Positions 2,666-13,775 of a stretch of 37,335 bases of DNA are shown here, in pieces. Within the stretch, counting starts at the first letter, position 1; every line of letters starts with the position of its first letter. This stretch comes from Methanobacteriota archaeon (GTDB lineage Archaea > Thermoplasmatota > Poseidoniia > Poseidoniales > Poseidoniaceae), in assembly GCA_018667575.1 (NCBI GenBank), contig JABIUA010000154.1:1-37335 (forward strand). Direction: 5' to 3'. A program made the position numbers and the translations under genes. Below the pieces are notes generated by a model. The model ran no database searches. It was not told where the DNA came from and worked only from the letters and a program-made list of their open reading frames with translations.

Positions 2666-3310
2666 TCAGCACATTCCACCGACTAATCCGGGCATCAGGC
2701 GTACCTTTTGGGCGCCCTGTAGGTCTGTTTCTGCTAAGTCTGCAGTGGCCACCATCCGATTGTCAACAAAAACCCATGTTCCATCGCAGTTGGATACGCG
2801 TTGAATCAATTCTGGCTTTGTCATCTCTACTTGTGAATGCCCTGTTTCATCAGCTATCTCGACTGTGAATCTAACCTCTTCTGAATTACCTCCCACTAGG
2901 CCTGGCATAGCCCTCAATCGGCTACCCTGTTCAATCTCCATCGAGTTAAGTTCAGAAGCGGATACCATCCTATCATCGACAAATAACCATGTTGCGCCTG
3001 AATTTGCGGTTTTAACAAGTTCCGCTTTAGACATCTCTACAATGGAGTGGCCGGTTTTATCTGCTACCTCTACCGTGTAAGTCTGTTCTTCTTCTGTGCT
3101 GCCACCAACAATACCGGGCATTATTCTGATTTTTGAATCGGCGCTAATGTCTAGCCCCTCTATCTCTTTGGCCTCTACCAACCTATTATCGACAAAAACC
3201 CAAGAGCCTTTCGACTCATTGGCCTTTTCAATAATCTCTGGTGCGGTCATTTCAACAACTGAGTGTCCAGTTGAATCTGCTATTTCTACGATGTACTTCT
3301 TATCTGACAT
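2666..3310 (-). CDS. Triple tandem beta-grasp-like (ThiS/MoaD/ubiquitin-like) protein, each module ending in VGG; C-terminal GGMC
   Basis: Three repeats with 71-aa period: ...VEIADSTGHSVVEM...WVFVDNRLV...KIRIMPGIVGG / ...VEVADKTGHSIVEM...WLFVDDRMV...RLRAMPGLVGG / ...VEIADETGHSQVEM...WVFVDNRMV...KVRLMPGLVGG-MC. Confidence 0.75.
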   Translation of the reverse strand: MSDKKYIVEIADSTGHSVVEMTAPEIIEKANESKGSWVFVDNRLVEAKEIEGLDISADSKIRIMPGIVGGSTEEEQTYTVEVADKTGHSIVEMSKAELVKTANSGATWLFVDDRMVSASELNSMEIEQGSRLRAMPGLVGGNSEEVRFTVEIADETGHSQVEMTKPELIQRVSNCDGTWVFVDNRMVATADLAETDLQGAQKVRLMPGLVGGMC

Positions 3311-3390
3311 GATACTTCCTCGGAAGTACAGAAAATCCAGTGTATATAATAAAACGCGAAACCACTCTAAAGACTACTAAGAGATACTTT

Positions 3391-3465
3391 TGGCGCCCAC
3401 TCCGGGAATTGAACCCGGGTCGCAGGAATGACAATCCTGCATGATAACCTCTACACCAAGCGGGC
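3391..3465 (-). tRNA. tRNA-Asp (anticodon GTC), 3' CCA encoded
   Basis: Reverse complement GCCCGCTTGGTGTAGAGGTTATCATGCAGGATTGTCATTCCTGCGACCCGGGTTCAATTCCCGGAGTGGGCGCCA; anticodon stem CAGGA/TCCTG, loop TTGTCAT. Confidence 0.95.
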
Positions 3466-12797: not shown

Positions 12798-12874
12798 GGC
12801 CCCATAGTGTAGCTTGGATATCACACTGGTTTGCGGAACCAGTAACCCGTGTTCGAATCGCGGCGGGGCCGCCA
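12798..12874 (+). tRNA. tRNA-Arg (anticodon GCG), CCA encoded
   Basis: GGCCCCATAGTGTAGCTTGGATATCACACTGGTTTGCGGAACCAGTAACCCGTGTTCGAATCGCGGCGGGGCCGCCA; anticodon stem CTGGT/ACCAG, 7-nt loop TTGCGGA. Confidence 0.88.
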
Positions 12875-12878
12875 ATGT

Positions 12879-13775
12879 TTACCACATTTCATAGTCCATT
12901 TTTGCACACATTTGCTCCATTTCCTCATCGCCGATATGGCTAAATTGTTCGACTAGTGGTAGTATTAGTTTACACAAGTCTAGAGATGTTGTCCAATCCA
13001 TCGAGTCGGGCATAGTGTTACCTGGGCATCTAGAAATTCTATTCATCATAGGAAAAATACTGCTCGAATCTTCTAGAACTGATGCTGTGTCCTTGGTTAA
13101 CATACGCCAATATCTCTGTCTTGGCTTCTTATACTCCAAACTGAAGCCAACAGCTAATGGATTGCCAAAACCAAGCCTCCACTTGAAACCATGAGTGCCC
13201 CTGAATGCTACAGTCAAAGTATCCAGGTCATAATCAGCATTGAATCTAGATGAAAAGTAACTTTCCATCTTATCTCCAATAGGACTGTGTGGGTCAGGAC
13301 CATACAATTCAATCAAAGCTGTTCTAAGGGTTTCTCCGTGTTCATTATCGAAGAAGTTTCTATCATTTAGTAATCCAAAAATCATCGCTGCGATACTATC
13401 TGCAAATGGGACATTTACATCGGAAATACTCTGAATACAAGCAAAGGTAGATTTCTCCTTATCCAGTTTGCCTTTAGCATGAACTGAAATCGTATCAAAA
13501 CCAATTCCATACACAATCGGATTTCTCAACCTCTTCAATAATGTATCAATTTTGATACAATAAGTGGCCAATTGCCCAGATACAACAATGTTATCATCAT
13601 CAAGCATTATCCTATCTGACTCTGAATCCATTATCTCATCAAGAAACTCAAATGCCCTAATGTGAGACGCTGTGATGGCTGATAATTCCATCATCAAGTT
13701 GCTTTTTTTCTGACTTTGGACGCCATTTGAAAGTGGCATGAGCGCTTTCTTTTTCATGCTCGTAATCAAATTCAA
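12879..13775 (-). CDS. Hypothetical protein (soluble, no recognised family)
   Basis: Long ORF between tRNA-Arg and the HAD gene; no recognised motif; start may be internal. Confidence 0.65.
   Translation of the reverse strand: MNLITSMKKKALMPLSNGVQSQKKSNLMMELSAITASHIRAFEFLDEIMDSESDRIMLDDDNIVVSGQLATYCIKIDTLLKRLRNPIVYGIGFDTISVHAKGKLDKEKSTFACIQSISDVNVPFADSIAAMIFGLLNDRNFFDNEHGETLRTALIELYGPDPHSPIGDKMESYFSSRFNADYDLDTLTVAFRGTHGFKWRLGFGNPLAVGFSLEYKKPRQRYWRMLTKDTASVLEDSSSIFPMMNRISRCPGNTMPDSMDWTTSLDLCKLILPLVEQFSHIGDEEMEQMCAKMDYEMW

Follow-up and report, generated by a model that had tools for sequence, protein, structure and literature searches.

A candidate polyubiquitin-like precursor and its probable E1-like, JAMM and cysteine-bearing partners in Poseidoniales archaea

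The DNA analysed here, referred to as the window, comprises positions 1 to 37,335 of contig JABIUA010000154.1 (assembly GCA_018667575.1) of an archaeon of the family Poseidoniaceae, order Poseidoniales. It encodes a protein of three ubiquitin-like (UBL) modules, polyUBL, which is probably a polyubiquitin-like precursor that is cut by a JAMM protease, activated by an E1-like enzyme and attached to proteins. Sequence comparison across 324 Poseidoniales genomes shows that UBL proteins, an E1-like ThiF protein, a JAMM protein and a cysteine-bearing protein, here called X, form a co-occurring four-component set. Poseidoniales thus probably possess a ubiquitin-like system for tagging proteins, one that is unrecognised by the family databases searched. 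The original prediction, made from the letters of the window, had proposed a candidate polyubiquitin precursor; the proposal is strengthened by the co-occurring E1 and JAMM, the conserved glycines at the module ends and the short C-terminal extensions.

The polyUBL open reading frame (ORF) was confirmed at the predicted location and lies on the minus strand, which had not been given before (Table 1). The three modules are as first described: their diglycines fall at residues 69-70, 140-141 and 211-212, a spacing of exactly 71. Between modules, protein identity is 46-50%. Identity at third codon positions is only 33-41%, compared with 64-66% at the first and second positions. The near-random third positions and the conservation of the other two show that the modules are old duplications held by selection at the protein level, in agreement with the earlier suggestion of selection on diverged units. 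The repeat is not an assembly artefact, because orthologues with one, two, three and four modules are found in many independent genomes.

A profile of the module finds UBL relatives in 152 of the 324 genomes. They have one, two, three or four modules, and the number is stable within clades. In 89 distinct UBL ORFs all 152 complete module ends are GG (121) or AG (31); the sole other end is truncated by the end of a contig and lies outside the 152. The first glycine is therefore an alanine in about 20% of the ends, always as AG, and only the last glycine is invariant. The predicted GG at the end of every module holds for all three modules of the window but is relaxed to AG in some homologs, where the terminal glycine still never changes. 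The internal ends of the two-, three- and four-module relatives, about 64 in number, are all [GA]G. Three positions are the same in all 137 distinct modules of the relatives, namely the final G, the G of TGH and the W of WVFV, in keeping with the shared motifs first noticed. The final G of this alignment was partly enforced by trimming, whereas the count of 152 ends was made without that trimming.

A tail of 1-19 residues, most commonly of one residue, extends beyond the last glycine in 80 of the 81 complete free-standing UBL proteins. In contrast, both of the two ThiS/MoaD-like proteins of the window's genus end in '...PPVSGG', a bare GG with no tail. The simplest reading of this difference is that the UBL protein is a precursor needing trimming. 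The head-to-tail modules, terminal GG and extra C-terminal residue of polyUBL are those expected of ubiquitin and polyubiquitin genes.

Some two-module relatives from the window's genus (L007-L009, L012, L014-L018 and others) end in VPALQAG or VPALLAGQ, not in GG. In several genomes of this type X lies within a protein of about 800 residues, adjoining an aldolase-like gene. Beyond Poseidoniales, 296 genomes of the phylum gave just four marginal UBL matches (E 0.005-0.008), which were not credited. The named GTDB records matched by X belong to Candidatus Poseidoniales / Poseidoniaceae, marine group II.

No E1-like or JAMM gene lies in the window, as the original prediction had it. Both lie on another contig of the same genome, in an operon (G000:C11:431-1877) that encodes a 218-residue ThiF/E1-like protein, a 185-residue JAMM protein and a 79-residue helical protein. 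The 185-residue protein carries WVHTHPGFMAYWSSTD, which has the JAMM signature H-x-H-x7-S-x2-D. The expectation that all partners would be encoded elsewhere thus stands for E1 and JAMM but not for X, the likely fourth component of the system, whose gene is in the window about 9.6 kb from the UBL gene. In other genomes of the genus the same trio is flanked by a GDP-mannose-dehydratase-like and a 3-hydroxyacyl-CoA-dehydrogenase-like gene, both named from sequence with no search behind the names. A conserved protein of 75-79 residues follows the JAMM gene directly (L067:1638-1877, with equivalents in L072 and L080-L085) and has no Pfam match.

In many other genomes UBL, E1 and JAMM adjoin each other on one strand, usually with X in front of them, which gives the order X-UBL-E1-JAMM. 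Fusions join the same components: UBL-UBL-E1 (L078, L079 and L128), UBL-UBL-X (L077), a UBL-X-like form read by eye (L159), and E1-JAMM at 10 or more loci (L074, L134-L136 and L138-L143). In L077 the segment that follows UBL-UBL in the fusion is a homologue of the window's X. Among the 324 genomes, UBL and E1 are distributed as 138 with both, 14 with UBL only, 18 with E1 only and 154 with neither (odds ratio 84); the odds ratio is 75 for UBL with JAMM and 292 for E1 with JAMM. X, present in 177 of the 324 genomes at E<=1e-4, accompanies UBL closely (148/4/29/143 in the same order, odds ratio 182). Within the window's genus X occurs in 42 of 42 genomes with UBL, compared with 7 of 21 without. 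A profile specific to the short E1 was used for these counts, since the ThiF Pfam family is confounded by a second, general ThiF/MoeB-like E1 of about 400 residues that is also present in Poseidoniales genomes. Many of the genomes are incomplete, and this lowers the chance of detecting an association.

The short E1-like protein clearly belongs, by its sequence, to the E1/ThiF superfamily. It matches PF00899 at 5e-15, and its profile retrieves MccB (1e-12), ubiquitin E1, ThiF, MoeB and Cap2 from the PDB. In about 40 members of the family the GxGGxG and DxD motifs, a lysine and the cysteine of 'SCQ' are all invariant, and we take this cysteine to occupy the place of Cys184 in ThiF and Cys187 in MoeB. 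In the JAMM family the E, H, H, S and D of the glutamate and HxHPx(6)SxxD motifs are invariant in 38 of 38 sequences; in 8 of 12 sequences the best Pfam match was Prok-JAB, at scores under its cut-off.

The fold of the module was predicted with AlphaFold2 (AF2) from an input alignment of only the window's own three modules. The model of module 3 has the topology b-b-a-b-b-(h)-b with a predicted local distance difference test (pLDDT) score of 76.6. The best 50 Foldseek matches in the PDB are mostly the UBL domain of ubiquilin, ISG15, ubiquitin, SUMO, Mth1743 and MoaD (E 0.0036-0.1, probabilities to 0.98, template modelling scores 0.34-0.53), which is evidence at the level of topology. The predicted beta-grasp fold of the UBL module is therefore supported, on one module. 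A module profile run against PDB sequences matches mainly ubiquitin chains, ungapped up to the GG and hence in C-terminal register; its low E-values are sums over repeated copies, single domains being weak. By hhalign the module profile aligns with ubiquitin/Rub1 at E 0.02 (16-row profile) or 0.005 (137-row profile), pairwise values that fall short of significant homology to ubiquitin, and with the genus's own ThiS/MoaD-like pair at E 0.019. Of the originally noted likeness to ThiS and MoaD the beta-grasp stands; the protein is otherwise nearer to pro-ubiquitin than to a sulfur carrier, the bare GG being the ending of the genus's ThiS/MoaD-like proteins. Scans of the UBL protein against Pfam, NCBIfam and PADLOC gave no credible match. 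Multi_ubiq (Pfam PF14452) gave no match at E<=1 among 16 modules scanned or with the whole window protein, and PF02597 gave none for the window's protein in the Pfam scans. Weak PDB matches to potato-type trypsin inhibitors are a likeness at the level of motifs and were set aside as probably due to chance.

In the X family a Cys-Ile pair and two aspartates never vary over 42 distinct domains. Two further copies are present in the same genome, one of them inside a 799-residue ORF on contig C47. The 'VHPKD...ACIQVD' of relatives of X resembles the HPN...C of E2 enzymes, and an E2 identity was examined from several sides. X has no Pfam match. Its AF2 model is of moderate confidence (pLDDT 68) and has no significant Foldseek match in the PDB (best E 0.28). 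Profile searches of X against PDB and Pfam gave no E2 match, and hhalign against three yeast E2s was negative (probability 0.3%). Fold, profile and hhalign searches thus give no support to an E2 identity of X. It might nevertheless act as one, a hypothesis that is kept because of its operon position, its fusion to UBL and its invariant cysteine.

Taken together, the components suggest the following pathway. The JAMM protein would cleave the short linkers behind each [GA]G and also take off the C-terminal tail, leaving monomers whose terminal glycine is free. This glycine would be adenylated by the E1-like enzyme, which may bind it as a thioester through its own invariant cysteine. Transfer of the modifier to lysines on target proteins would follow, possibly by way of the invariant cysteine of X in the role of an E2, and the same JAMM could remove the modifier again. 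There is a precedent for the trimming step: in Caldiarchaeum a JAMM removes a nine-residue tail from pro-ubiquitin, and the untrimmed form is refractory to E1 (PMC5654768).

Several observations weigh against this reading. The sequence similarity to ubiquitin is weak (hhalign E 0.02 in a single comparison), and every Foldseek E-value of the module model is above 0.001. The E1-like protein lacks the usual arginine of NLxRQ, having histidine instead (NLGHQ in 95% of the family, for example in L067), and lacks the zinc-binding CxxC pairs, so that its activity is assumed. The JAMM assignment consists of the motif and sub-threshold matches to hidden Markov models, and no E2 fold was detected for X. 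In the window's genus the UBL gene does not adjoin E1/JAMM. Finally, the Fisher p-values of the co-occurrence ignore shared ancestry.

Could the protein act without being cut into monomers? A multivalent modifier trimmed only at its C terminus, like ISG15, would fit the stable module number within clades, and bacterial BilA, with two consecutive UBL domains and C-terminal processing, is such a protein (PMC11354881). However, the internal ends all retain [GA]G in modules that share only about 50% identity and have near-random third codon positions. An uncut protein need not keep its internal glycines, which makes this alternative unlikely. Still less probable is a sulfur carrier whose module glycine becomes a thiocarboxylate and whose product is released by JAMM, like Mec+ with CysO, or PdtG in siderophore operons. 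Some sulfur-carrier operons do contain JAB proteins (PMC1779556, row 4a), but these genomes already hold a ThiS/MoaD-like protein with a bare GG and the second E1 of about 400 residues, no sulfur-transfer or cofactor gene was noticed by eye among the ORFs around the E1-JAMM operon, and tandem precursors with tails better fit a modifier. A structural scaffold, with modules kept for binding, glycines of structural importance and E1 and JAMM acting on another substrate, would suit the separate location of the UBL gene in the window's genus and the AG of some relatives, but is very improbable given the invariant final glycine, the UBL-E1 and UBL-X fusions and the UBL-E1-JAMM operons.

The proposed system can be compared with several that have been described. 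The polyUbl operons of bacteria that Iyer, Burroughs and Aravind 2006 class as type 6e (PMC1779556) likewise have tandem UBL domains of about 70-75 residues, one to three there and one to four in Poseidoniales, and in both an E1 is adjacent to or fused with JAB. Type 6e operons also encode an E2/RWD-like protein that can be fused to polyUbl (PMC1779556); X has the same place, but no match to the UBC fold was detected. The type 6e protein is an inactive E2 lacking the cysteine, whereas the cysteine of X is invariant. The type 6e metal-binding protein has the signature C-x3-C-x(35-38)-H-x2-C, which differs from the CxxC...CxxC with which some X proteins start. Type 6e hosts are proteobacteria, actinobacteria and cyanobacteria, not archaea, and the Poseidoniales set further differs in its four-module forms, UBL-E1 fusions and lack of a Pfam match to Multi_ubiq.

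The ubiquitin/E1/E2/RING operon of Caldiarchaeum subterraneum, with an Rpn11-type JAMM (PMC5654768), shares the archaeal host, the residues after GG, the JAMM and a dedicated E1, although processing by JAMM is inferred here. Its ubiquitin is single and homologous to the eukaryotic protein, while the Poseidoniales modules are tandem and very distant; it has a true E2 and a RING protein, while no E2 was recognised in Poseidoniales, nor a RING protein, for which no aimed search was made. With SAMP, ThiS, MoaD and Urm1 the system has in common the beta-grasp, the C-terminal GG and an E1 of ThiF/MoeB type, and with SAMP1, which works with HvJAMM1 (PMC4443979), also a JAMM. Those are single modules with a bare GG and a general UbaA/MoeB E1; the window's protein is tandem and tailed and has no PF02597 match. 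BilABCD, a bacterial ISG15-like system (PMC11354881, section 2.4), also has tandem UBL, E1 and JAB in one operon; its BilA is a two-domain modifier, X differs in having no detectable E2 relationship, and no defence context emerged here. Judged by sequence, the Poseidoniales set would work like the bacterial polyUbl and Caldiarchaeum systems, but the comparisons place it in neither of them, as Multi_ubiq gave no match and no E2 was detected.

Table 1. Features of the window that concern the UBL system, and adjoining tRNA genes.
Feature	Position	Strand	Basis
polyUBL gene, triple ubiquitin-like, 214 residues and stop	2666..3310	-	ORF call; orthologues
Module 1, residues 1-70; GG codons 3101-3106	3101..3310	-	sequence
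Module 2 with acidic linker STEEEQ, residues 71-141; GG codons 2888-2893	2888..3100	-	sequence
Module 3 with linker NSEEVR, residues 142-212; GG codons 2675-2680; structure-predicted module	2675..2887	-	sequence and model
C-terminal extension 'MC' after last GG, presumed removed	2669..2674	-	sequence; tails in free-standing relatives
GAGG, Shine-Dalgarno-like, 7 nucleotides ahead of polyUBL ATG (putative)	3318..3321	-	sequence read directly
TATA-box-like AT-rich stretch upstream of polyUBL start (putative)	3340..3353	-	sequence read directly
tRNA gene directly upstream of polyUBL gene; context, outside the system	3394..3465	-	
Protein X gene, 298 residues, invariant Cys113 (codon 13437-13439)	12879..13775	-	co-occurrence with UBL and E1; fused to UBL in relatives
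tRNA gene adjoining X gene; context	12798..12871	+	

The neighbours of the UBL operons in relatives are varied. In L070, L071, L073 and L077 second operons, with single- or double-module UBL, E1 and JAMM, adjoin genes of T7-like single-subunit RNA polymerases (PF00940 at 1.6e-20 in L070, read by eye in the other three), which suggests carriage by a mobile element. A viral origin was considered and rejected, as searches of IMG/VR found no relative of UBL, E1, the UBL-E1 fusion or the neighbouring RNA polymerase. TFB-like genes with a zinc ribbon and cyclin-like repeats, read by eye, adjoin UBL operons in L076 (5498-6517), L078 (397-1473) and L086 (643-1776). AAA+ ATPases do so in L069 (1362-2798) and L076 (4070-5473); that of L069 matches PF00004 at 3.9e-23, its nearest PADLOC family is IetA/TRIP13, and these ATPases may serve the modifier as an unfoldase. 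A more far-reaching proposal is that polyUBL is a true polyubiquitin gene, served by a dedicated JAMM, a minimal E1 and X as a new, non-UBC kind of cysteine E2, in a cascade distinct from those of ubiquitin, SAMP, Bil and Caldiarchaeum and partly borne by mobile elements; we hold this only tentatively and consider it rather doubtful as a whole.

When archaeal Ubl genes were surveyed in 2010, Jab proteases were seldom linked to them and no E2 was found (PMC2948915). The open-access papers found report tandem polyUbl operons from bacteria and, for archaea, systems with a single modifier. The Poseidoniales set therefore bears on the origin of polyubiquitin-type precursor processing. These archaea, the Marine Group II of the ocean surface, are very abundant, and about half of the 324 genomes carry a complete-looking set with tandem precursors. 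UBL, E1, JAMM and X are a handful of proteins suitable for reconstitution in vitro, and the variable module number, from one to four, together with the repeated fusions, amounts to a natural experiment on precursor processing.
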